Assembly: GCA_022376465.1 (NCBI GenBank)
Contig: JACDTU010000027.1
Coordinates: forward strand, 1-64,000
Source: Cubamyces lactineus
Lineage: Eukaryota > Basidiomycota > Agaricomycetes > Polyporales > Polyporaceae
Direction: 5' to 3'
Length of the DNA stretch: 64,000 nucleotides
Of this stretch, positions 14,419 to 64,000 are shown in pieces. The stretch's first letter is position 1, and the number at the start of each line of letters is the position of its first letter. The notes beneath the pieces were generated by a model. The model was not told where the DNA came from. It made no database searches and was given only the letters and a program-made list of their open reading frames with translations. The translations under genes and the position numbers were made by a program.

Positions 14419-14960
14419 TGTTACGCTTTCGAGCGTGACTCTTAAACTATCAAGCCTTAAGACGTCAATGAATAGAGAGCTTGTATCTATTCAGCTACTA
14501 GCCCTAGCTTGTCGAAGATAAGCGCGTAGTAGTATTTGCAGTTGAAAGCGAGTTAACGAGCAACCAAAGTCGTATTTCGCGAAGAGACTGAAAGCTGAGG
14601 GTCGCTCTATGGCGTCGCCTCTTATATACATGTATGCAGGCCTGTAGACGGAATGTTCTAGCGTATACACGGACTTTCTGGTACGTAGTAGTCAGCGCTA
14701 GTCGAACCTAGTAACACTGTGGCAGTGCTGCTGTGGACTGTGCAGAAGCGCCTGTGCACTGCGCGGAAGTAACTGTGCACTGTGCAGAAGCGACTGTGCA
14801 TAGAAAGTCCTAGAGTGTCCTAGATAATATGAGACCATTCCTGTCTTATAGAACCGTAGCTAGAATCCTAGAGTCCGCCATATCTGTATCGTACAGAGAT
14901 CGAAGCAGATACTGTACCAGTTCGTACAGTTCGTAACACGCCTATCGTACATTCGTAACA
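14419..14960 (-). repeat. 3' LTR of the full-length element (left copy)
   Basis: 542 bp, beginning TGTTACG and ending CGTAACA (7 bp terminal inverted repeats). It differs from the right copy by one transition (T at about 14830, C in the right LTR). It contains the same TATA box and predicted start site as the other LTR. Confidence 0.95.
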
Positions 14961-14974
14961 TTAGCTCCCCCTCC
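14961..14974 (-). promoter_or_regulatory. polypurine tract
   Basis: On the minus strand the bases before the 3' LTR read GGAGGGGGAGCTAA, an all-purine run except for CT near its end. This is the expected plus-strand DNA primer position of an LTR retroelement. Confidence 0.8.
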
Positions 14975-14994
14975 GCTGAAGGTCGTCCTCGACC

Positions 14995-16290
14995 TTAGGC
15001 ATGCACAATAATGTTCTGGTTTCTCTCGACAACCTCAGGACGGAAGACGTCCAACGAGATCTCGACGAGGTCAGACTCATTACCTACCGCCCGAATGCAA
15101 TCCCACTGCGCCGACTCTGCCGCCGACATGCCTAGAGCCTGGCGATAAGTTGTCGGGGTACGCTCTGCTTCGATCTTGAAAGCAGGAAAATTACCTCGAC
15201 GAGCGATGACATCGTCGATAAGAAGTGCTGCCGCCATGGTGGTCCGAACAGAAGCCTCCGGCCATCGAAGGTGGTATGCGACCATAATGCGAGTAGTCGA
15301 GATGCCGAAGGGGTTGTTGGGAACGACAAAGATGTCGCCGTTGGAGTTGACATATCCGAGTCGATCTTCACCGGTTCCTCGAAAAAACCCGCAACGTCCT
15401 CGGGGTTCCTCGACGTTCTTAGTGAGCGTTGTCGGGGGAGGAGGAGGAGGAGAGGGCGCCCTGACTGCGACCTTCAAAGCCTCATGGAACTCCTCTTCAA
15501 GGAGCTCATCGACTTCGTCGACCGTGCTAAGCTCGAGGTGTTCGAGCTCAGGTAAGAGGTCGAAAGACTCAACCTCGGAATAGGATGAGTCGGAACTGGA
15601 GGAGGTCAGGGAAGGAGTCGACTCTTGGGTAGAAGTCTGACCCCATTTGATAGCTTCCTCTTCAGGGTCGGGGGTGGATACCTTCCAGGGATCAGTCGAA
15701 GGAATTGACCATCCGCCGACTGAACTCACATCTGCGTCTTCATCCTCATCTACCTCAATAGCCTCCGGGTAATCGTCGAGGCGCTGCGGCCAAAAGATAT
15801 GCCCCCAGCTGTGAGTGCCGTGTTGGTTGCGAAGGGGCATGAGATCCGAGAGAGCCCCCGCGATCTGGGGGTTAGCGAGCATAGAGAGTACTTTCTCTGC
15901 CGCTTGGATCACCGCTTGGTACGCCTCGTTTGCTACCTGGTCTACCTTCTTCTTCTCCGACCTAGGAGCCGACGTTCTCTTATTGTAGTTGACGAGAACT
16001 CCATAAGAGGGAGCGGCTCTAGCGAGAGAGCGGTAGATGTCGATGAGGTCCTTGACCTCGGGAAGATGAGCGATCCTTGCCTCGACGTGACTATAGAGGT
16101 CAGGGTGAACGATGACCCAGCCGATGCGGTCGGCGAGGGTGCCTTCATCGTTGGCCGAGACGATGTGTCGAGGAAGGTGGTTATAAAAAACCGTTCGTCG
16201 TTCGCGGATGAAGTTGGGGGGACGAGGGATGTTACGCCTGGAAGCCTCAGAGAAACGGCGACCAGTGAGCTGAGTGCGAGTGTAGACCAT
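14995..16290 (-). CDS. extra ORF downstream of pol
   Basis: An ATG-initiated 431-residue protein beginning 67 bases after the pol stop, in the same element and orientation. I recognise no domain. It has a mixed-charge N-terminal half (1-150), a long acidic and Ser-rich middle (about 170-270, with runs of Asp, Glu and Ser), a Pro run, and a C-terminal block (about 290-431) that looks folded. There is no zinc knuckle, signal peptide or membrane segment, so an env role is not supported. A fourth cistron downstream of integrase is unusual for a chromovirus. How it is translated is unknown; a subgenomic or spliced RNA, or reinitiation, is possible. The antisense frames over this region are shadows. 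Confidence 0.75.
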   Translation of the reverse strand: MVYTRTQLTGRRFSEASRRNIPRPPNFIRERRTVFYNHLPRHIVSANDEGTLADRIGWVIVHPDLYSHVEARIAHLPEVKDLIDIYRSLARAAPSYGVLVNYNKRTSAPRSEKKKVDQVANEAYQAVIQAAEKVLSMLANPQIAGALSDLMPLRNQHGTHSWGHIFWPQRLDDYPEAIEVDEDEDADVSSVGGWSIPSTDPWKVSTPDPEEEAIKWGQTSTQESTPSLTSSSSDSSYSEVESFDLLPELEHLELSTVDEVDELLEEEFHEALKVAVRAPSPPPPPPTTLTKNVEEPRGRCGFFRGTGEDRLGYVNSNGDIFVVPNNPFGISTTRIMVAYHLRWPEASVRTTMAAALLIDDVIARRGNFPAFKIEAERTPTTYRQALGMSAAESAQWDCIRAVGNESDLVEISLDVFRPEVVERNQNIIVHA

Positions 16291-16357
16291 TGTGAATATA
16301 TGAGAAATTGTTCAGAAAATTGGAAGAAATATTTCAGTGGGGAGTGGGTTGAATCTT

Positions 16358-19300
16358 TCACGACAACTTGTGCCTCTTCTTATAGTTGCGCAAGATCGAC
16401 TGCGCATTCTTGAGATGTTTTTCTGGTTCCCAAGAATTTTCCGACGCGGGCCAACCCTTCCAAGCCACTAGGTACTGTTTTCGGGTACCTCGGGTACGGT
16501 GGCTTAGGATTGCTTCTACCTCCCATTCCTCTCCTTCCGTCGAGTCTGGAGTGGGAATCGGTGGAGGTCGGACGTAGTCTGGTCCATGTTCCTTAGTTGT
16601 GTGGTACGGGGTCAGTAGCGCTGCGTGGAAGACAGGGTGTATCTTCCATTTCTCCGGGAGTTTTAACTTAAATGTAACCGGTCCCAAGACCTTGACGATC
16701 GTGAACGGTCCCACTCGTTTTGGAATTAACTTCCTGGAGACATATGGAAGCCTGAGGTTCTTTGTATCGAGAAGAACCTTGTCTCCAAGCTTCAGCGGAA
16801 CTTGAGCAGCGGGGAGCCTTCTTGACATAGCTGCGGCGGCCTGCGCGTGCGCAGCTATTGTATTCTCCCTGGCTTCCTGAAGACTTTGAAGCCTCTGCTC
16901 CGTACTTGGATGCTTTGGGGTTGTTCGGACTGTCCCAACGGCCTCTGGCTGAAACCCGTAGAGTAGCTCAAACGGGGATTTTCCCGTGACAGAGTGTGTC
17001 CGCTGATTGTGCGCGAATTCGAATTGAGGCAGCAGTTTGGCCCAGTTCTCCGGATTATTAGCACAGTAGAGCCGAAGTGCTAAGTCGAGTTCTTGATTTA
17101 CTCGCTCCGTTTCCCCATCTGTCTGAGGATGGTAGGCCGTGCTGAGTGCCGTTTCAATTCCGAGGCTGTTGTGTAATTCTTTGAATGCCTTGGAGATGAA
17201 TTGCGGTCCTCGATCCGAGATGACCTTCGCGGGTAGTCCGAATCTGCGATATACATCCCTTTGCAGAATATCCATGGCTCCTTCAGCCGTAATATTCTTG
17301 GTGCAAGGGGAAAATACTGCTGCCTTGGATACATCATGGTCGACTACCACTTGAATGGCATTAAATCCATCCGACTCTGGTAGATCCGTGATATAATCCA
17401 TGGTAATTGTCCGAAAAGGCCTAGTATCCCCACTGTGTTGAATGGGAATTAAGCCTGGTTTAATGGGATGCGTATTGACCTTGCTTGTTTGGCAAGCGGC
17501 GCAACCTTTGACGTATTGCACAATGAATTTCCGCATGCCTGGCCACATATATTCCCGTTTAACCAGATCGTAGGTTTTCTGGACTCCTGGGTGTCCCATA
17601 ATTGGTGCGTCGTGATGCATCTTGACTATATCACGATACAATTGATTATCTGGTGGAACGTATACCCTGTTCTTGTACAGGAGTATTCCGTCGTCGTCGG
17701 ACCAATCTTCTGGTTTGCCGAACTCTGGGCGTTTGGTAGCCTTTCCTTTTAGAGTAATGTACTCTACTACCGAGTTGTCCCGTAGCTTGCTATCACGGAT
17801 GCGCTCTTGTAGCTCAACGTTGACAGCTTTGGCAAAAAGTTCTGGCCCTAATAATACGACGTCCTTATTGTCATTTTCCCCCCCGTTATGCCCTGATCTC
17901 CGAGAAAGGGCGTCTGCTTGAGTGAGGGATTTTCCGGGTTGGTGCTTGATTACGATGTTGAATTCCGAGAGGAATAAATGCCATCGCGCCTGTCTGCGAT
18001 TTAACTTCTGCGCCGTACGGAAATAGGTCAGATTTTTGTGATCTGATAGAATTTCTGTAGGGTGTGGGGAGCCCTGCAAAAAATGCCGCCACGCTTCGAG
18101 AGCTCGAACAATGGCCAACAATTCCCTATCATAAATCTGATAGTTCCGTTCCGCAGGAGTAAAGGACTTGGACAAATAGGCACAAGGATGCCATAGTCCG
18201 TCCTCTCCTTGCTGTCGTAGTACAGCACCTGTTGCGACTTTAGAAGCATCGCACTCAATCTGAAATGGTTTCTCTGGATCCGGGATTTGCAGGATCGGTT
18301 CTTCAGTAAACCGCTTCTTGAGTGTGTCGAATGCTTTCTGACAATCAGGGGTCCACAGAAAAGGCTGGTCCTTCTTGGTTAATTCCGTGAGGGGTCGGAC
18401 TATCTTTGAATAATCCCGAATGAACCGTCGGTAGAAATTACCGAACCCTAGGAATGCCTGAACCTGCTTGACTGTTTTCGGTGGTTCCCACTCGATAATT
18501 GCCTTGAGCTTTACTGGATCCATAGCGACTACCCCTGGCCGAATTATTGATCCTAGGAATTCGACTTCTTGTCTGTCGAATTCACATTTTTCCGCCTTAA
18601 GGAATAGATCACTGTCTTGAAGTCGCTTTAAAGCTCTTCGCGTGCGTTCGTGGTGATCCTTGACATTGTCTGAGAATATTAGGATGTCGTCCATGTAAAT
18701 GACCATCCATCCTTCCTGGAGCATGTCTCGGAAGAGGTCGTTCATCATGTTCTGGAATGTGGCCGGTGCATTGCACAGACCAAAAAACATGACTGTTGGT
18801 TCGAACAATCCGCTGGGTGTTATAAACGCAGCTTTCCACTCATCGCCCTCCTTGATGCGAACATTATTGTACCCTGCTCGCACGTCGAGTTTGGTGAATA
18901 TTGTGGCCCCCTTCAGCCGGTCAATGATGTCGCTAATGAGCGGCAAGGGATATGCGTTTTTGATAGTCCCCTCGTTAAGAGCCCTGTAGTCTTGAACAGG
19001 TCGAAGACTCCCATCCTTCTTGGTGACAAAGAAAAATGGCGAGGCTAGTGGAGACTTGGATTTTCGAATGTAGCCCTTCTCGAGGTTCTCCGCAATGAAT
19101 TTATCGAGTTCTATACGTTCCGTATAGGTCAGAGGGTAGATTTTCCTCCAAGACCCTTTGGTATGATGGTCGAAGTCCTTCTTGAATTCGATAGCATGGT
19201 CCCATGGTCTCGAGGGCGGAAATCTACTTGCTGCCTTTTTCTCAAAGACCTGTCGATAGTCCTTTACAAAATCAGGTAGGATTTCGTCCAAGGTCTTCTC

Positions 19301-20011
19301 CTTCTGGTCTTTCTTTGCTGCTATAGCTATCTCCGTAGACTTATTAATCTTTCGGATTTTCTTCCTGCGGTACCATAGCTCGATGGCCCTCGAAGGATTA
19401 AATGTAAGCCTTTCAGAGTCTGGGTCTGTGTCGTCCTCGTCCGGTATAGCACGTACGAACGATACGACCAGATCTTGATTTTGAGGTTTTACTGGGAAAT
19501 TCCACAGCATCCCTTCGGGTGGGTCGTGCTCGCATTGGTATTTATGGATCTGCTGCTGCTTCTTGATAATATCCGACTTGAAAGTAATGCGTCCACTTTC
19601 CCAGTCGATATTAGGATTGTACTTGCGGATCCATGGCATGCCGAATAGGACATCGTCCCGTCCAATGTCGGCCACATACCAATTTGTTGGGAGCTTCTTC
19701 CCGTGGAGATTAAATGTCCCCTCCACCCGATGGGTAATGGTTCCCATACTATTAACGCTATCGTCCGCGTTCCGGAAGGTCAGAGTCTTCGGTAGTCTGA
19801 CTGTCGGAAGATTGTACTTATCTACAATCTTTTTATTGACGATCACGGCATCCGCACCAGTGTCAATGAGCCCCTTGATTTCGACGGCTTTGTCCTGAAC
19901 CTGCATGTAACCGGGTATTAGCAGAGCACTGCGTCTCCGCTCTGTATTGGTTACAATAGTTACATGCAGTTCCTTGGGCAAGTCAGGCGTCGAGTCTGCT
20001 TGCCTGCCTAA
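16358..20011 (-). CDS. pol: pol polyprotein of the Ty3-type element
   Basis: The frame has no usable ATG near its start and is entered by -1 frameshifting from gag at about 20011. Counting from 19981, the aspartic protease motif DTGAD is at residues 40-44. Reverse transcriptase follows at about 290-480 with YMDD at 429-432, then RNase H (CDASKVATGAVL). The integrase HHCC zinc motif (H...H...CAAC) is near 790-830, and the catalytic D, D and E lie in TMDY, SDRGPQF and TDGETERVN. A C-terminal chromodomain follows (EVEAILSHRT...YLVAWKGW...NSWEPEKHL). Chromodomains steer integration through histone marks. All key residues are present and there are no stops, so the enzymes look functional. Confidence 0.95.
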   Translation of the reverse strand, partial: LGRQADSTPDLPKELHVTIVTNTERRRSALLIPGYMQVQDKAVEIKGLIDTGADAVIVNKKIVDKYNLPTVRLPKTLTFRNADDSVNSMGTITHRVEGTFNLHGKKLPTNWYVADIGRDDVLFGMPWIRKYNPNIDWESGRITFKSDIIKKQQQIHKYQCEHDPPEGMLWNFPVKPQNQDLVVSFVRAIPDEDDTDPDSERLTFNPSRAIELWYRRKKIRKINKSTEIAIAAKKDQKEKTLDEILPDFVKDYRQVFEKKAASRFPPSRPWDHAIEFKKDFDHHTKGSWRKIYPLTYTERIELDKFIAENLEKGYIRKSKSPLASPFFFVTKKDGSLRPVQDYRALNEGTIKNAYPLPLISDIIDRLKGATIFTKLDVRAGYNNVRIKEGDEWKAAFITPSGLFEPTVMFFGLCNAPATFQNMMNDLFRDMLQEGWMVIYMDDILIFSDNVKDHHERTRRALKRLQDSDLFLKAEKCEFDRQEVEFLGSIIRPGVVAMDPVKLKAIIEWEPPKTVKQVQAFLGFGNFYRRFIRDYSKIVRPLTELTKKDQPFLWTPDCQKAFDTLKKRFTEEPILQIPDPEKPFQIECDASKVATGAVLRQQGEDGLWHPCAYLSKSFTPAERNYQIYDRELLAIVRALEAWRHFLQGSPHPTEILSDHKNLTYFRTAQKLNRRQARWHLFLSEFNIVIKHQPGKSLTQADALSRRSGHNGGENDNKDVVLLGPELFAKAVNVELQERIRDSKLRDNSVVEYITLKGKATKRPEFGKPEDWSDDDGILLYKNRVYVPPDNQLYRDIVKMHHDAPIMGHPGVQKTYDLVKREYMWPGMRKFIVQYVKGCAACQTSKVNTHPIKPGLIPIQHSGDTRPFRTITMDYITDLPESDGFNAIQVVVDHDVSKAAVFSPCTKNITAEGAMDILQRDVYRRFGLPAKVISDRGPQFISKAFKELHNSLGIETALSTAYHPQTDGETERVNQELDLALRLYCANNPENWAKLLPQFEFAHNQRTHSVTGKSPFELLYGFQPEAVGTVRTTPKHPSTEQRLQSLQEARENTIAAHAQAAAAMSRRLPAAQVPLKLGDKVLLDTKNLRLPYVSRKLIPKRVGPFTIVKVLGPVTFKLKLPEKWKIHPVFHAALLTPYHTTKEHGPDYVRPPPIPTPDSTEGEEWEVEAILSHRTRGTRKQYLVAWKGWPASENSWEPEKHLKNAQSILRNYKKRHKLS

Positions 20012-20017
20012 AAACCC
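19977..20017 (-). promoter_or_regulatory. -1 ribosomal frameshift signal between gag and pol
   Basis: The last gag codons read G GGT TTT TAG, a canonical X-XXY-YYZ slippery heptamer (20017-20011) ending right before the stop. After a 6-base spacer a stem forms: GGCAAG (20004-19999) pairs with CTTGCC (19982-19977), extended by CAG (19998-19996) with CTG (19986-19984), with one bulged A and a 9-base loop. The pol frame is exactly -1 to gag and has no stop between the heptamer and the protease. All elements of a -1 frameshift signal are present; efficiency is unknown. Confidence 0.85.
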
Positions 20018-21882
20018 GTCTCGAAATCTGTAGCCCTGAGTGCGTTAATAGAAATATTGTCCTCTTCGTCCTCGTCGTCCTCTTCGTCTGAGATCTCCTC
20101 AGATTCGTCCTCTAAGTCCTCGTCGGTAACCTGTCGAACCTTCCGACTGACAGGTTTGCCGGGCTTCTTAGGTTTAGAAGGACAGTCTCTGGAAATATGT
20201 CCCGGCTTCCTGCACCGGAAACATAGTCCCTTGTCTTGCAGCTCCTGTCTCTCCTTGACAGAGAGCTTGTTAATATCGAGCGAGTCGTCCTCGATATTAA
20301 CCATCTTGACGTTCTTTCTAGTCTTCGAGGTTTTGGCTTTGCGTCCTCTGCGATTAGCCAAAATCTTCTCCGTAAGGTGATAGCTATGGTCGATCTCCTT
20401 AGTCCTAGTCATCCACTCTTCAATGGTCGTCGGCGGAGGGTACGACATGGATATCTTCTTAAGTAAATATTCTGGAAGCGCATTCCTGTACAGGGCCAGT
20501 TGCGCTGCTGGGTCCAGAATTTTTCCCTTGAGAGCTAGATCCATGAACCTCGCATTGAACTCATCAACTGAAGAGTAGTCCTTGAGCTGTATTGTCGTGA
20601 GATTAACCATAGAGTCGTCCACCTCGTCTACTGGGGCAAATGCGAGCAGGAAATTCCTTTTGAAGACGGGCCAAGAGTCAAATCCTCGATAGACTCCCGG
20701 TCTAATTTCCTCTTCAGCTCGCTGAATTGTGATGTCCTTCCAGTAGTTTATATTGTCCCCTTCCATGAAGGATAGGGCCGTCGCCACCTTCGTGTAATCA
20801 TTAACAAAGTCGTGGGGTCGCGCCGTGAACAACAGGAACAGTTGATTAAGGAAGGACCTGGTTTTGTCTCGGTCTCCGTTGAAGACCTCAGGGTCCTTGA
20901 TCTTGCCCTTTCCGTGTCCTTGCGGCGCATTTCCTGGAGCTTCTTGCGGTTCCGGGTCTGGGTCTGGTCCTGGTGGTCCTCCTCCTGGGGAGTAGGGATC
21001 TGAAGGCTCAGGGTCAGGCCGACCTCCGGGCCTACCTGGTCCGCCTCCTCCTCCACCTCCAGAAGGATTGATAACTCCTCCAGAAATTGCCGTTGCCCGA
21101 GGGGCTGGTCCACTTGATAAAGACCCGTATCTTTCTCCTTCTGAGCCTTGCCCTTGCGGAGTGAACGCATATCTATGGGCTCCAGAAATGGACTCCCCTG
21201 TCGCTGTTCCCGACATGTACGATGGTACTGATTTTCGTACAAATTCTGGGGTTGCGCTGCGACCAGTATACTCCAATTCAGATTTAGTCTCCTCGACCTC
21301 TGTCTGAATATGCTCTTCTCTCGGTTCAGGTGTTTCTGCCTCGACCCGAGTGTCTTCTGTTTTCGGTGCAGGTACTACGACCTTAATCCGAATAGTTTCT
21401 TCGATTTTCGGTTCAGGTGCTTCGACCGTCGTCCGAAAAGTCTCGTCCTCCTTGTCCGAGTCCTCTACCTTAGGCGGTTCGGTCTCCTTTCCTTTCTCCT
21501 TGAAGGATGGACCTGATTCCTTAGGTGATTCGGATTCTTGAGGTTTTGGGGTTCCTACTCTTGAAGTCGGAAACGATCCTGACACAACTCTCGGACTATT
21601 AATCCGACCAGTAGCTTTTCCAGCAAGTAGTGGCTTCTTGACTAACGCGGGTTGTCGTCCGTGGGTGTTAGTAATATCCCGCTCTTGTGAAGAGTGTGTT
21701 AGGATTAAAGCCGATGCGTGCTTGACGTTTGGAACCTCCTTAGTGTTGTACCGAAGTGGACACCTTTCGTTGGTGCAAAAATTCCACTTGTCTACGCTTT
21801 CTCGATAGTATACGTCCCGAGCTTTGTCGGAGTTGTAGAGATGATATAACCTTGAACAACTATATGGTTCAGCTGAACTCAT
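20008..21882 (-). CDS. gag: gag protein with CCHC zinc knuckle
   Basis: 624-residue structural protein forming the virus-like particle. Residues 1-60 are Cys-containing (CSRLYHLYNSD; CTNERCPL). An acidic Pro/Glu-rich and Gly-rich linker follows to about 330. The capsid-like retrotransposon gag domain spans about 340-510 (FNGDRDKTRSFLNQLFLLF; INYWKDITIQRAEEE; FDSWPVFKRNFLLAF). The zinc knuckle CFRCRKPGHISRDC (C-x2-C-x4-H-x4-C) is near 565 and an Asp/Glu-rich tail ends the protein. The ATG at 21882 overlaps the stop of the preceding ORF as ATGA, and the gag stop is the frameshift site for pol. Confidence 0.93.
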   Translation of the reverse strand: MSSAEPYSCSRLYHLYNSDKARDVYYRESVDKWNFCTNERCPLRYNTKEVPNVKHASALILTHSSQERDITNTHGRQPALVKKPLLAGKATGRINSPRVVSGSFPTSRVGTPKPQESESPKESGPSFKEKGKETEPPKVEDSDKEDETFRTTVEAPEPKIEETIRIKVVVPAPKTEDTRVEAETPEPREEHIQTEVEETKSELEYTGRSATPEFVRKSVPSYMSGTATGESISGAHRYAFTPQGQGSEGERYGSLSSGPAPRATAISGGVINPSGGGGGGGPGRPGGRPDPEPSDPYSPGGGPPGPDPDPEPQEAPGNAPQGHGKGKIKDPEVFNGDRDKTRSFLNQLFLLFTARPHDFVNDYTKVATALSFMEGDNINYWKDITIQRAEEEIRPGVYRGFDSWPVFKRNFLLAFAPVDEVDDSMVNLTTIQLKDYSSVDEFNARFMDLALKGKILDPAAQLALYRNALPEYLLKKISMSYPPPTTIEEWMTRTKEIDHSYHLTEKILANRRGRKAKTSKTRKNVKMVNIEDDSLDINKLSVKERQELQDKGLCFRCRKPGHISRDCPSKPKKPGKPVSRKVRQVTDEDLEDESEEISDEEDDEDEEDNISINALRATDFETGF

Positions 21883-22754
21883 ACACGTTGTGCTTGTCGT
21901 AGGAAAGCCTGATGTAGTTCCCTAGCTCGGAGGCAACTACGAAATTTCCTAAGATTTTCTTCGAGGTCTATATCTGCGTAGTTCTCCGGATTGAGGACCT
22001 TTGCTCGCAGGTAGTCAATCTGGTTCTGAAGATATCCCGCAAAGTTCCGTACCCTCGTTGGAGGCGTAACAGCTTGTCTTGGAATAAATTCGAGTGTCTG
22101 GATGACCTGAGTTATGTATCGATGGGCTCGTTCGAGAGTCGCGTGATATCTCCTCGTGAAGTCTTCCTGTCCTAGTACTTCCAAGTTATCTGCTATAACT
22201 CGAAGTGTATCGATCGCGTGCACCGGAAGCTGTGTTCTCCGATAGAATATCCCTGCCGTTGAGGATGCTTCTTCAACACTAGTTTCTGGAGTCGATCGAT
22301 CCGAACTATCCGTTCCTGGACTCGCTCGGGTTGGAATGGGTACGCCTATTGCTACTCCTGATTCCGCCTGAATGGCCAGAGAATTCCTATATTCTCTCCA
22401 CTCGTCTGTTCTCTGAAACGCGGGTTCTTGTTCCGATACTCGAGTGCTCCGACCCGACGATGTCGAACTGGTACTTTCTACGTAAGGGATTGTCGAGCTA
22501 AAACCTCTTATCAAGGGGAATGGGGATCCTCCTGGCGATCTTGGGAGAGCAACTATATTCTCCGGGATCGCGAGTGGTGGTAAGCTCGGCAGTGTTTTGT
22601 TCCTTCCGCCTAGTACCCTGGGTGATTGTCGCAATGGGGGTTGTGTAGTTCCCTCCGTATTGACTATCGTCTCTCTGTACGTTACGAGCAAGAGAGAGTT
22701 CTGATGCGTTTCGTAGTCGTTGTCTTCCGACGTAGGCCTCTGCACTTTTAACAA
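21879..22754 (-). CDS. first ORF of the element, no AUG, unknown function
   Basis: The frame of about 291 codons is open from 22808 (a TAG lies in the LTR) to its TGA at 21879, and it contains no ATG at all. The coordinate given uses an in-frame TTG; an in-frame CTG at 22775-22773, with A at -3 and A at +4, lies inside the primer-binding region and is another candidate start. The product has a Ser/Thr/Pro-rich first half and a helical second half (about 165-291) with no domain I recognise. Its TGA overlaps the gag ATG as ATGA. It may be an extra N-terminal protein translated first, with gag made by reinitiation, or an exon joined by splicing. Confidence 0.6.
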   Translation of the reverse strand: MLKVQRPTSEDNDYETHQNSLLLVTYRETIVNTEGTTQPPLRQSPRVLGGRNKTLPSLPPLAIPENIVALPRSPGGSPFPLIRGFSSTIPYVESTSSTSSGRSTRVSEQEPAFQRTDEWREYRNSLAIQAESGVAIGVPIPTRASPGTDSSDRSTPETSVEEASSTAGIFYRRTQLPVHAIDTLRVIADNLEVLGQEDFTRRYHATLERAHRYITQVIQTLEFIPRQAVTPPTRVRNFAGYLQNQIDYLRAKVLNPENYADIDLEENLRKFRSCLRARELHQAFLRQAQRV

Positions 22755-22766
22755 GTGGAGGGTTAA

Positions 22767-22778
22767 AGCTTTCAGTCT
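22767..22778 (-). promoter_or_regulatory. primer-binding site, self-priming type
   Basis: Two bases inside the 5' LTR the minus strand reads AGACTGAAAGCT. It does not begin TGG and so does not look like a tRNA 3'-end complement. It is exactly complementary to AGCTTTCAGTCT at 22958-22947, the predicted first 12 bases of the RNA. This matches the Tf1 mechanism, in which the RNA 5' end folds back to prime reverse transcription. Confidence 0.75.
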
Positions 22779-22780
22779 AA

Positions 22781-23322
22781 TGTTACGCTTTCGAGCGTGA
22801 CTCTTAAACTATCAAGCCTTAAGACGTCAATGAATAGAGAGCTTGTATCTATTCAGCTACTAGCCCTAGCTTGTCGAAGATAAGCGCGTAGTAGTATTTG
22901 CAGTTGAAAGCGAGTTAACGAGCAACCAAAGTCGTATTTCGCGAAGAGACTGAAAGCTGAGGGTCGCTCTATGGCGTCGCCTCTTATATACATGTATGCA
23001 GGCCTGTAGACGGAATGTTCTAGCGTATACACGGACTTTCTGGTACGTAGTAGTCAGCGCTAGTCGAACCTAGTAACACTGTGGCAGTGCTGCTGTGGAC
23101 TGTGCAGAAGCGCCTGTGCACTGCGCGGAAGTAACTGTGCACTGTGCAGAAGCGACTGTGCATAGAAAGTCCTAGAGTGTCCTAGATAATACGAGACCAT
23201 TCCTGTCTTATAGAACCGTAGCTAGAATCCTAGAGTCCGCCATATCTGTATCGTACAGAGATCGAAGCAGATACTGTACCAGTTCGTACAGTTCGTAACA
23301 CGCCTATCGTACATTCGTAACA
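22781..23322 (-). repeat. 5' LTR of the full-length element (right copy)
   Basis: 542 bp, one mismatch to the left copy. Being upstream in the element's orientation, it carries the active promoter. Its U3, R and U5 parts can be set from the predicted start at 22958, leaving about 178 bases of R plus U5. Confidence 0.95.
22958..22990 (-). promoter_or_regulatory. LTR core promoter: TATA box and predicted start site
   Basis: On the minus strand TATATAAG occupies 22990-22983, and 32 bases after its first T begins AGCTTTCAGTCT, the sequence complementary to the primer-binding site. The spacing fits a TATA-directed start at 22958. Confidence 0.7.
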
Positions 23323-46140: not shown

Positions 46141-46807
46141 GGGGCGGCCTAGTTGGAACTGCGTATAACCCGGTTCCAACTACCCCCTCACGGTTCCAAC
46201 TCCCCTCAAGGTTCCTTCTCCCCCGTCAGGCGAAAAACGCGTTGCTTGGGTTTCGAACCCAAGCGTTGCAGCAAACAGAATGGTCAAGCCGACCACTCCG
46301 TCATTAGGGGCTGTTTATGTCAGTGCGCACGGTGCTATAAGGGTGTATCTCGCCATCGGGTCTTTGCGGGCCTAAGTCAGGTCGCCTTGCAGGTTGGCAT
46401 GAAGACGCATTCATCTGGCCAACGAGGTTGGATTCAGTACGCGACCACGTCACCTAAGAGGACCAGCAAGTCAATACTGATCCAATCCAATGGGTGATAC
46501 CATTCCGTGTCGCACGTCGTCAGGCTTGAGCTCCCGTCTGCCTATTTAATAATTGTAGTCAGCGTAATGTACTCGGTAGGTACTTAGTCCATGGACGCGT
46601 GTCCCCTAGTAGCCGATACAGGTACCGGTGCGGTACACTGCCACCCCCGCCATCAATTCAGTTGATCGATCGGTGTCGATTTCTCCGCATTACGCCTCTG
46701 CAAAGTGAGGATCAGCCACCATACAATGCGACTACGGTATATACATCGAGCATTCCATCAAAAAACCACCATGGAAACCTATAACGCGCATGAGCACCCG
46801 CCCGATC
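46141..46807. other. region between truncated element and TRIM-bearing gene
   Basis: No gene. It contains repeated GGTTCCAACT blocks (about 46170-46215) and a strong hairpin at 46244-46264 (GCTTGGGTT-TCG-AACCCAAGC). Confidence 0.45.
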
Positions 46808-46835
46808 CTAGTCCATCGTCGGAATGGCAAACCCA

Positions 46836-46840
46836 GCGTC
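46836..46840. repeat. target-site duplication GCGTC, left copy
   Basis: GCGTC directly before the TRIM; repeated at 47353-47357 directly after it. Confidence 0.9.
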
Positions 46841-46982
46841 TGTCATGATCCGTGCTGGAATGGCATGTCATGGCATTAGGAACTGCTTATATAGATCCGG
46901 ATAACTATGCTGATAACCTCAGCATAGTGGCCTTTTGGCCCAGTTGTTAGATTGTGTTATTGTCCGGGCACGGTCTCTCACA
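46841..46982 (+). repeat. left terminal repeat of the TRIM
   Basis: 142 bp, identical to the right copy. It contains TATATA (46888-46893) and, 27 bases downstream, AACCTCAGCATA (46915-46926), the predicted RNA 5' end. An inverted repeat CTATGCTGA/TCAGCATAG surrounds this point. Confidence 0.9.
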
Positions 46983-46983
46983 G

Positions 46984-46995
46984 TATGCTGAGGTT
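46984..46995 (+). promoter_or_regulatory. presumed self-priming primer-binding site of the TRIM
   Basis: TATGCTGAGGTT, one base inside the left repeat, is exactly complementary to AACCTCAGCATA at 46915-46926, the predicted start of the element RNA. Confidence 0.65.
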
Positions 46996-47210
46996 CCCAG
47001 GTCACTGGTTCAAACCCTGGTGGTTGCATTCTGTTCCGCACCACAGGGCCCCAGACTAGTGGCTTACAGAGGCTTGGGAAACCTCTGGGGGTCTGCTATA
47101 AAAAGCATTCCTGGGTCCTAGAAGGTTAAGCTAGCCCCAGGGCCTGGAGAACCCTGGTTTGACATGTCAGGCTAGCACCTTCGAGGGCTTGGTGCCTAAA
47201 GGGGGGGCAC

Positions 47211-47352
47211 TGTCATGATCCGTGCTGGAATGGCATGTCATGGCATTAGGAACTGCTTATATAGATCCGGATAACTATGCTGATAACCTCAGCATAGTGG
47301 CCTTTTGGCCCAGTTGTTAGATTGTGTTATTGTCCGGGCACGGTCTCTCACA
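47211..47352 (+). repeat. right terminal repeat of the TRIM
   Basis: 142 bp, identical to the left repeat, preceded by the purine tract at about 47198-47210 and followed by the second GCGTC. Confidence 0.9.
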
Positions 47353-48084
47353 GCGTCCACCATGTCGACCCTATCCGGAATCTCAATGAAATCAGCCGCC
47401 TTCATGTTGTAGTTGTCGCACAGCATATTTGCAACCCTACAAACGAATCTCAGATGTCAGTAGCACGCTCTCAATAGAAGTAACTTACGGAATGTATTCG
47501 TAAGGCCACCAACCGTCCTTGCCTGTAGGCCAAGGCACGACCAAATCGAGGTCGGCCCCATCCAGCCCTAATGGCGGCTGCAATGTGATCCCGACGTTGG
47601 CTGCCCCGCCAACCGTCGTGAATCCAATCTCTAACAGAGCCTGTAGTGTGTCAGAGAGCGGGCAATACGAGAACATCCAGACCATACATCGATGAACGCA
47701 TCGAAGTCTGCGCTGGCTGTAGCCCGTCTGTCGTCTCCAACGACGCTTTGGATCGCCTGCAGTCGCGTCAGTACGTTATGCCTGTGTAGAAATCCTTTAC
47801 TCACCACATATAGCACCGTTTTCAGGGCGTATTTGGGAGCCATACTCACGTCTGATCTAATGTAGGCGATGGTTGTGGTCAGAAAGCGCGTCGCGCGCCT
47901 ACCTACGTGACCCTAGCGCAACACCAGGCTCGTTCTGGCGCATCCGTTCCTCGTTCGAATCTTCGTCCTCACCCCGCGCGTACTTGCGCCAGTATTCTGG
48001 CTGCCGCTCAGTCTTCGCCTGTTGAAGCTTGAATATATGTGCGCCATCAACGCGACGCTTACCCACCCTGTACGCAAGAGTCAT

Positions 48085-58770: not shown

Positions 58771-58954
58771 ACAATCAACAATTATTAACACAATGTAATT
58801 GTAAAACAAGAATGACACCTGAGATTGACGCCACATACAATTGTTTATGAAGGTGGTACTATAGTATTTGATGATTAACAATATGTGCGCAATGTTTGAC
58901 ACAGAATATAGCAGGTGTATTATCTTGTGGTTCCATTGTAATAATCAAAGTACC

Positions 58955-59710
58955 ACAATCGTGCCACGTCGACGTGTTGTAGCTGAACGTGGCGCAGTTG
59001 TATATGGTTGGAATATCACAATCGTGCCACGTCCACCTATTGTAGCTGAACGTGAGGCGGTTGTATATGGCTGGAATATCACAATCGTGCCACGTCGACC
59101 TGTTGTAGCTGAATGTGGCGCGGTTGTATATGGCTGGAATATCACAATCGTGCCACGTCGACGTGTTGTAGCTGAACGTGGCGCGGTTGTATATGGCTGG
59201 AATATCACAATCGTGCCACGCCCACCTGTTGTAGCTGAACGTGGCGCGGTTGTATATGGTTGGAATATCACAATCGTGCCATGTCCACCTGTTGTAGCTG
59301 AACGTGGTGCGGTTGTATATGGCTGGAATATCACAATCGTGCCACGTCCACCTGTTGTAGCTGAACGTGGCGCGGTTGTATATGGTTGGAATATCACAAT
59401 CGTGCCACATCGACCTGTTGTAGCTGAACGTGGCGCAGTTGTATATGGCTGGAATATCACAATCGTGCCACGTCGACGTGTTGTAGCTGAACGTGGCGCG
59501 GTTGTATATGGCTGGAATATCACAATCGTGCCACGCCCACCTGTTGTAGCTGAACGTGGCGCGGTTGTATATGGCTGGAATATCACAATCGTGCCACGTC
59601 GACCTGTTGTAGCTGAACGTGGTGCGGTTGTATATTGTAGCTGAACGTGGTGCGGTTGTATATTGTAGCTGAACGTGGCGCGGTTGTATATGGCTGGAAT
59701 ATCACAAGGT
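58955..59710. repeat. satellite array 1, 63-bp unit
   Basis: About eleven tandem copies of a 63-bp unit (TTGTAGCTGAACGTGGCGCG, GTTGTATATGGCTGGAATAT, CACAATCGTGCCACGTCGAC and connecting bases). The last copies (from about 59635) are shortened to about 28 bp. Because 63 is a multiple of three, long frames open on both strands; they are not genes. Confidence 0.92.
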
Positions 59711-62345: not shown

Positions 62346-62499
62346 CTCGATATACAAATACAAATGGCCCACCTCATTGAGAATCAATGACACTATGGAT
62401 TTTCAATGGGAGTGGGGCTTTTGTAGTAGTGTATTAACAATTGTGCCACATTTGTAAATGAGATGCATGAATAATGCCCCCACGTATGATACACAATAG

Positions 62500-63840
62500 C
62501 TGGATCGTACATGGACGTGGGTGGTTTGCATATCCCTGCAATACACAATCCACCCACGTCCAATGTATAATAGCTGAATTGTAGATGGACGTGGGTGATT
62601 TGTAGATGCCTCTGATATACAATCTGCCCACGTCTGATGTACAAAAGCTGGATTGTAGATGGACGTGGGCAGTTTGTAGATGTCAATAGCTGGATTGTAG
62701 ATGGACGTGGGTGCTTTGTACATGCCTCTGATATACAATCTGCCCACGTCTGATGTACAATAGCTGGATCGTACATGGACGTGGGCGGTTTGTATATCCC
62801 TGTGATACACAATCCACCCACGTCCAATGTACAATAGCTGAATTGTAGATGGACGTGGGTGATTTGTAGATGCCTCTGATATACAATCTGCCCACGTCTG
62901 ATGTACAAAAGCTGGATTGTAGATGGACGTGGGCAGTTTGTAGATGTCAATAGCTGGATTGTAGATGGACGTGGGTGATTTGTAGATGCCTCTGATATAC
63001 AATCTGCCCACGTCTGATGTACAAAAGCTGGATTGTAGATGGACGTGGGCAGTTTGTAGATGTCAATAGCTTGATTGTAGATGGACGTGGCAGTTTTGTA
63101 AATGCCTCTGATATACAATCAGCCCACGTCTGATATACAATCAGCCCACGTCTGATATACAATCAGCCCACGTCTGATATACAATAGCTGGATTGTATAT
63201 GAACGTGGCAGTTTTGTATATGAACGTGGCAGTATTGTATATGCCTCTGATATACAATCTGCCCACATTTAACTTGATTGTATATAGACGTGGCAGTTTT
63301 GTACATGCCTCTGATATACAATCAGCCCACGTCTGATATACAATAGCTGGATTGTATATGAACGTGGCAGTATTGTATATGAACGTGGCAGTATTGTATA
63401 TGAACGTGGCAGTATTGTATATGAACGTGGCTGGATTGTAGATGAACGTGGGTGATTTGTACATGCCTCTGATATACAATCTGCCCACGTTTAGCTTGAT
63501 TGTAGATGGACGTGGCAGTTTTGTAAATGCCTCTGATATACAATCAGCCCACGTCTGATATACAATCAGCCCACGTCTGATATACAATAGCTGGATTGTA
63601 TATGAACGTGGCAGTTTTGTATATGAACGTGGCAGTATTGTATATGCCTCTGATATACAATCTGCCCACATTTATCTTGATTGTATATGGACGTGGCAGT
63701 TTTGTACATGCCTCTGATATACAATCAGCCCACGTCTGATCTACAATAGCTGAATTGTATATGAACGTGGCAGTTTTGTACATGCCTCTGATATACAATC
63801 TGCCCACATTTAGCTGGATTGTATATGGACATGGCCACTT
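62500..63840. repeat. satellite array 2, variable unit of about 75 bp and less
   Basis: Tandem and partly inverted modules of GCTGGATTGTAGATGGACGT, GGGCAGTTTGTAGATGCCTC and TGATATACAATCTGCCCACG type. The order of modules varies, giving higher-order repeats (62530-62700 resembles 62770-62950). Toward 63,100-63,840 the units shift to a GAACGTGGCAGTTTTGTATA version close to array 1. Frames across it are not genes. Confidence 0.9.
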
Positions 63841-63849
63841 TGTAGATGC

Positions 63850-64000
63850 CACTTTTGTATTACAACTACTATCTGGGCACTTTCTAGCGCTTTTTGGGCT
63901 CCTATTTGGGCGCTTCTTCAACGCTTTTGGGCGCTTTTTTGGCTGTTATCTGGGCGCTTTTTTGGCTGTTATCTGGGCGCTTTTTGGGTTCCTATTTGGG
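63850..64000. repeat. start of a third simple array (GGGCGCTTTTTTGG type)
   Basis: Repeats of TTTTTTGGCTGTTATCTGGG and GCGCTTTTTGGGCTCCTATT blocks of about 20-30 bp continue to the end of the window. Confidence 0.8.

Follow-up and report, generated by a model that had tools for sequence, protein, structure and literature searches.

The short element and its locus

The window, that is the whole stretch of 64,000 nucleotides of Cubamyces lactineus DNA analysed here (contig JACDTU010000027.1, positions 1 to 64,000; contig C20 in our genome search), carries on its + strand a 512-bp long terminal repeat (LTR) element at 46841-47352, which we refer to as the short element and whose mode of priming is the subject of this report. 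Its coordinates and sequences were first given in a preliminary description of the window and proved correct on re-reading. The parts of the element are given below, where older LTRs are the single, shortened or truncated copies found elsewhere in the genome and family B is a chromovirus of the same genome, both of which are described in later sections.

46836-46840, + strand: target-site duplication, left copy, GCGTC
46841-46982, + strand: 5' LTR, 142 bp, TGTCATGATC...TCTCTCACA, identical to the 3' LTR; lone LTRs with 5-bp duplications occur elsewhere
46888-46893, + strand: TATATA, presumed core promoter; older LTRs show 1 difference in 45 aligned letters
46904-46913, + strand: U3 palindrome arm ACTATGCTGA, complementary to 46919-46928; older LTRs show 1 difference in 71 aligned letters
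46915-46926, + strand: putative self-primer AACCTCAGCATA, 11-12 nt, at the presumed RNA 5' end
46936-46946, + strand: A-box-like motif TGGCCCAGTTG, a lead only, resembling the box of a tRNA-type RNA polymerase III (Pol III) promoter
46983-47210, + strand: interior, 228 bp, not long enough to encode a polymerase
46984-46995, + strand: predicted primer-binding site TATGCTGAGGTT, complementary to 46915-46926
47007-47017, + strand: B-box-like motif GGTTCAAACCC, a lead only, an exact match to GGTTCRANYCC
47198-47207, + strand: polypurine tract AAAGGGGGGG, which precedes the 3' LTR and aligns with the purine tract of family B
47211-47352, + strand: 3' LTR, 142 bp
47353-47357, + strand: target-site duplication, right copy, GCGTC

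The LTRs match at 142 of 142 positions and GCGTC stands on both sides, just as the preliminary description had it, whilst the interior ends in AAAGGGGGGG-CAC, after which the 3' LTR begins. The direct LTRs, the TG..CA ends, the target duplication of constant length and the purine tract are those of an LTR retrotransposon, and the total length (512 bp, below 1,000), the LTR length (142 bp, in the range of 100-250) and the 228-bp interior have the dimensions of a terminal-repeat retrotransposon in miniature (TRIM). The missing coding capacity was judged from this length, no search for open reading frames at small size having been run. The LTR also contains a palindrome with perfect 10-bp arms and a loop of 5 bases, ACTATGCTGA-TAACC-TCAGCATAGT (46904-46928), the right arm of which overlaps the primer segment; the same 10-bp palindrome surrounds the primer in the 3' LTR (47274-47298).

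The start of the interior is complementary to the element's own LTR

The segment TATGCTGAGGTT at 46984-46995 is the exact reverse complement, over 12 nt, of AACCTCAGCATA at 46915-46926. The site starts at the second interior base (after the G at 46983) and the primer lies 27 bases past TATATA, measured start to start, which is the geometry from which self-priming had been proposed. The LTR was shuffled together with the first 60 interior bases 20,000 times with dinucleotides preserved, and matches were counted at interior offsets 0-3; no shuffle gave a 12-base match, the longest being 11 bases (two shuffles). A looser control, which drew random adjacent stretches of the repeat-rich window, gave a match of at least 12 bases in 38 of 83,848 draws, and the position downstream of TATATA was required by neither control. 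A site that adjoins the 5' LTR and is complementary to a part of the LTR lying past the TATA box is the arrangement of Tf1, whose first 11 RNA bases are complementary to its primer-binding site (PMC7175516). It is well known that fungal Ty3/gypsy elements can prime themselves, and self-priming is the best-supported reading of the short element.

Parallel primer and site pairs in two autonomous families

Two autonomous families of this genome carry primer/site pairs parallel to that of the short element. The first, which we refer to as the big element, is in the window itself.

14419-23322, - strand: big element, a Ty3/gypsy chromovirus with 542-bp LTRs and the pair AGCTTTCAGTCT / AGACTGAAAGCT

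Its pair is 12 nt long, with the primer 32 bases after TATATA and the site beginning at interior base 3. The second, family B, lies at C40:232126-240436 (L061:2127-10000; loci L061 and L005) and has 695-bp LTRs (TGTTACGCTCCG...CCTAACA) flanked by the 5-bp duplication GCACC. Pfam matches were obtained for Gag, protease, reverse transcriptase, RNase H, integrase (zinc-binding domain), SH3_Tf2-1 and a chromodomain, with the integrase core domain at 31.8 bits, just below the cut-off of 32.6, and the best named matches of the polymerase, among 120 listed, are to Trametes (81% and 86% identity). The family-B primer AGTTCGGAAAT lies 33 bases after TATAAA and pairs exactly, over 11 nt, with the site ATTTCCGAACT, which begins at interior base 3. 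Seven family-B leaders were compared (L061 and six diverged ones, among 40 matches listed from 141 candidates): by script the pair is exact in L061, L084 (over 13 nt), L085 and L087, by alignment L083 has the same exact pair, which the script overlooked because its LTR end carries a one-base difference, and in the sites of L082 and L086 one and two C, respectively, are replaced by T, so that G-U pairs would remain.

The short element, the big element and family B appear, as far as their sequences tell, to have one geometry (a site of 11-12 nt placed 1-2 bases inside the LTR, and a primer 27, 32 and 33 bases after the TATA motif, respectively) with three different primer/site sequences. The preliminary description had proposed one priming mode for two different LTR families in the window, and the matching geometry supports this, with family B as a third case. 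It had also considered the short element unrelated to the big element, and the alignments of their ends are indeed at chance level: the LTR ends score 10 (3,160 of 5,000 shuffles as good) and the purine tract plus LTR start scores 18 (1,605 of 5,000). For family B against the big element the purine tract plus LTR start scores 26 (62 of 5,000 shuffles as good) and the LTR end 12 (1,372 of 5,000).

The short element and family B share 41 of 53 positions over the purine tract and LTR start, with a score of 56 where the maximum of 5,000 simple shuffles was 35, and their LTR ends, aligned up to GTAT, score 31 (maximum 26, again in 5,000 simple shuffles). Counted from the GT that both sites have, the site of the short element is ATGCTGAGGTT and differs from the family-B site at 8 of 11 positions, yet each site fits its own primer, which suggests, in this one comparison, that primer and site change together. 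Reverse transcriptase and integrase of the Tf1/Sushi clade are absent from the non-coding short element, such domains being found, by Pfam match, only in the proposed donor, family B.

An autonomous relative with the same LTR ends, for which the preliminary description had suggested looking, was found in part: family B has similar ends, but element and pattern searches of the genome turned up no autonomous element that shares the LTR body; apart from TRIM-like copies and LTRs, they gave one family-B-like end and two places with two mismatches. The absence of such a body from these searches would fit a short element that is self-primed but mobilised by some other autonomous element, unseen or lost. 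Family B, however, exceeds all 5,000 shuffles at both ends and the purine tract, and it is probably young and abundant, its youth being suggested by the 18 of 40 listed leader matches that are 100% identical (rounded) over 431 bases; we therefore regard a different donor as a minority possibility, though one of some weight.

Copies of the short element and their insertion sites

Our search of the 36.3-Mb genome (43 contigs) returned at least 18 rows, comprising eight full copies of 511-513 bp (L001-L008), nine LTRs that are single, shortened or truncated (L009-L017), and L018, which only repeats the L014 palindrome on the opposite strand and was excluded from the count. Exact 5-bp duplications flank all eight full copies. 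Because L006 and L008 sit in identical flanking sequence, with 99.6% identity over 3.5 kb, they are taken as one insertion, subsequently duplicated, and are counted once, so that the eight full copies represent seven insertion sites. The two LTRs are identical within each full copy and the insertions therefore look recent; L007 has one private base change which is present in both of its LTRs, as would be expected if both had been copied from one RNA.

Among the six full-length single LTRs (L009-L014), five retain an exact 5-bp duplication and L013 is without one, whilst no duplication borders L015 or L016 at the ends set for them, and L017 is a fragment of 42 bases that does not extend to the primer. 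L009-L013 have an intact primer. In L014 the 5-base loop of the palindrome is inverted, with the inner arms still complementary.

An 18-base pattern spanning the LTR end and the site, searched with up to three mismatches, occurred at 55 places (20 for the reversed control), eight of them exact and all of these the full copies; the flanks at 4 of the other 47 places held no primer match of at least 8 nt at offsets 0-3. The sequence TCATTCACAGTTTGCTGA also occurs within a repeated stretch at L088, L089 and 11 further places, which by eye is part of another transposon and not an LTR junction. One TRIM-like copy, L005 (C40:240845-241357), stands about 400 bases past the end of the family-B element, in sequence that by eye is like Ty1/copia RNase H.

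Comparison of the site with tRNAs

The site could alternatively be primed by a tRNA or tRNA fragment, with the match between LTR and interior a by-product of the LTR palindrome. In favour of this, cestode TRIMs use a Leu-tRNA site (PMC4558846), bivalve TRIMs contain tRNA-like stretches (PMC6934838), and the palindrome of the short element gives an additional copy of TATGCTGA nearby. We compared the interior with tRNAs of the same genome, obtained from an RF00005 search (63 of 918 candidates scored, 66 places listed, 50 of them fetched) in which ARAGORN read 59 tRNA genes amounting to 33 sequences, some of which differ merely by an end base; the set is incomplete, isotypes such as Met, Leu and Lys not being in it. 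When the first 25 interior bases were complemented and compared with these 33 sequences, the longest match was 7 nt, internal to the tRNA and not at its 3' end. A tRNA matching the interior start had been named in the preliminary description as evidence that would speak against self-priming, and none was found in this set. TGG, the complement of the tRNA CCA end, does not occur in the first 23 interior bases and first appears at interior base 24 (47006). The U3 arm has 8 bases in common with the site, whereas the LTR primer fits all 12, and we hold tRNA priming to be very improbable. The short element is TRIM-like in size and build but, with no site complementary to a tRNA among the 33 sequences, is not filed as a TRIM in the strict sense.

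The longest sense match between the first 60 interior bases and the tRNAs is 11 nt and is the B box itself. A tRNA relic at the locus was considered and rejected, as there was no Rfam match up to E 5 in 46700-47500 and no ARAGORN tRNA in the window; nor did ARAGORN find tRNA genes near the insertions, within 1.5 kb on each side of the L001-L017 loci.

Predicted folding of the leader

In the fold predicted from 46916 onward, an inner hairpin is enclosed by pairing between the first 11 leader bases and the site (-58.3 kcal/mol, z -3.56), and none of 200 shuffles was as stable. Over the first 110 bases from 46915, primer bases 2-12 are predicted to pair at a probability of 0.94-1.0, and the leaders of family B and the big element likewise pair the tip with the site. 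This stability, together with a palindrome which shows that the LTR tolerates or needs hairpins, would also be expected if the segments paired merely to make a structured RNA, for packaging or stability, and something else primed; but the position and length of the pair agree with those in the two autonomous families of the genome and with the first 11 RNA bases of Tf1, and we give this account little credence.

In the presumed 386-nt transcript the pairing of tip and site is kept, and the primer copy of the 3' LTR pairs instead with the U3 arm in a 10-bp hairpin. The longest complement to the primer in U3 is 6 nt in family B and 5 nt in the big element, compared with 10 in the short element, in which the modelled U3 hairpin may keep the 3' primer copy off the site.

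Proposed mechanism

It is likely, in our judgement, that the short element is a miniature non-autonomous LTR retrotransposon, self-primed in the manner of Tf1 and moved by family-B proteins. Transcription would start about 27 bases after TATATA, giving an RNA that begins AACCUCAGCAU(A), and the 5' tip of this RNA would fold back onto the site 1-2 bases inside the LTR. Reverse transcriptase/RNase H provided in trans would then cut behind the tip and extend it, as in Tf1. The donor of these activities would most likely be family B, which is in the same genome and has similar LTR ends and a similar purine tract, and the family-B integrase would insert the copy with a 5-bp target duplication. Complementarity would be renewed in each round, since the primer would be copied into the new site during plus-strand synthesis, so that the primer/site pair could drift fast yet stay matched.

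Several observations weigh against this mechanism. We infer the RNA start at the primer, the cleavage and use of the primer, and the donor from sequence, and the assignment of the donor depends on a similarity of about 85 bp at the ends. Covariation of the two segments over the collected copies had been proposed as a check, and both segments are indeed kept in 8 of 8 full copies, but they are invariant there, so that there is no covariation inside the family; with the full copies identical at these segments and the older single LTRs having no site, this comparison is uninformative either way. The 12-nt primer is broken in L014 (by the loop inversion), L015 (one substitution) and L016 (a deletion), none of which has the site, and across the older LTRs the primer shows no greater conservation than the LTR as a whole, with 9 of 91 letters differing (5 of 79 without L014) against 82 of 1,149 across the LTR, gaps being set aside in these counts.

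The last such point concerns the two further duplexes that Tf1 requires, which complete a three-duplex 'pretzel' (PMC10085805). The short element can form a duplex of this kind, the GUGGCCU that immediately follows its primer being able to pair with an AGGUCAC located three bases past the site (7 bp, including one G-U pair), but 1,833 of 100,000 shuffles also contained a 7-bp duplex, and 434 and 813 of 2,000 were as good in energy as the two pretzel duplexes of the element, the former figure being for the duplex behind primer and site. Family B has a duplex behind the site that was equalled in 1 of 2,000 shuffles and one before the site equalled in 573 of 2,000, and for the big element 136 and 472 of 2,000 shuffles were as good. 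The full pretzel is thus possible in the short element, with weak support.

Putative Pol III promoter boxes

On the sense strand, TGGCCCAGTTG (46936) and GGTTCAAACCC (47007) lie 71 bases apart, one on either side of the LTR/interior junction, and match, with one mismatch in the former, the tRNA A-box and B-box consensus sequences. No second pair of this kind was found on either strand of the window, and a set of 20,000 shuffles of the short element produced none on the + strand. From the primer start to the start of the A box is 21 bases, and Pol III starts upstream of an A box at about that distance. The short element might therefore be a hybrid that combines Pol III transcription like that of short interspersed nuclear elements with LTR-type self-priming, a hairpin-locked 3' primer and family-B enzymes that copy and insert it. 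In such a hybrid, Pol III acting through the LTR A box and the interior B box would set the exact RNA 5' end which self-priming needs, and the 10-bp U3/R hairpin would hold the primer of the 3' LTR locked, leaving the 5' copy alone able to reach the site; since the element brings its own primer, it would not need to match the priming site of its donor. We think the hybrid unlikely. The B box alone is not rare, with 2 in the window where 0.53 are expected (9 of 100 shuffles had as many), the boxes were noticed before they were tested and the wider A-box pattern was fitted to the short element itself, and CCTTTTGG, a weak Pol III stop, stands between the primer and the A box.

Relation to known elements

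Among the known elements nearest to this case are Tf1, Tf2, Tj1 and the Tf1/Sushi group, Ty3/gypsy chromoviruses that prime themselves, and the likely donor family B encodes a Tf2-like SH3 domain and a chromodomain. The short element differs from these chromoviruses in being non-coding and only 512 bp long, and in having an LTR palindrome that offers the primer a second partner in U3. It resembles the TRIMs of plants, ants, cestodes and bivalves in its length below 1,000 bp, LTRs of 100-250 bp, purine tract and lack of protein, and in leaving single LTRs and short target duplications. Cassandra TRIMs, which have a 5S-derived Pol III promoter in their LTRs, are likewise miniature LTR elements with Pol III-like boxes at the 5' end, but the boxes of the short element resemble tRNA A and B boxes and not 5S, and their function is putative.

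A TRIM is defined as having a site that is complementary to a tRNA, whereas the site of the short element matches its own LTR, and for the bivalve TRIMs no priming mechanism could be proposed (PMC6934838). For the cestode TRIM with a Leu-tRNA site, the donor is expected to have the same site, tRNAs being packaged (PMC4558846); the short element and its likely donor have different sites. The preliminary description knew of no self-priming TRIM, and the open-access literature searched likewise yielded no miniature element for which a self-primer is demonstrated or predicted, a search that leaves most subscription papers outside and may miss older work.

If the proposed mechanism is true, the short element would be a miniature element that carries its own primer and site, served by a donor with a different pair, and would thus be freed from the rule that the two must share a site. 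It would also offer a compact reporter for self-primed reverse transcription, because every requirement in cis must lie within 512 bp, and miniature LTR elements described as lacking a primer-binding site could be re-scanned against their own LTRs.

The window further contains internal repeat blocks at 58951-59707 and 62479-63853, one an array with a 63-base step and one longer and diverged.
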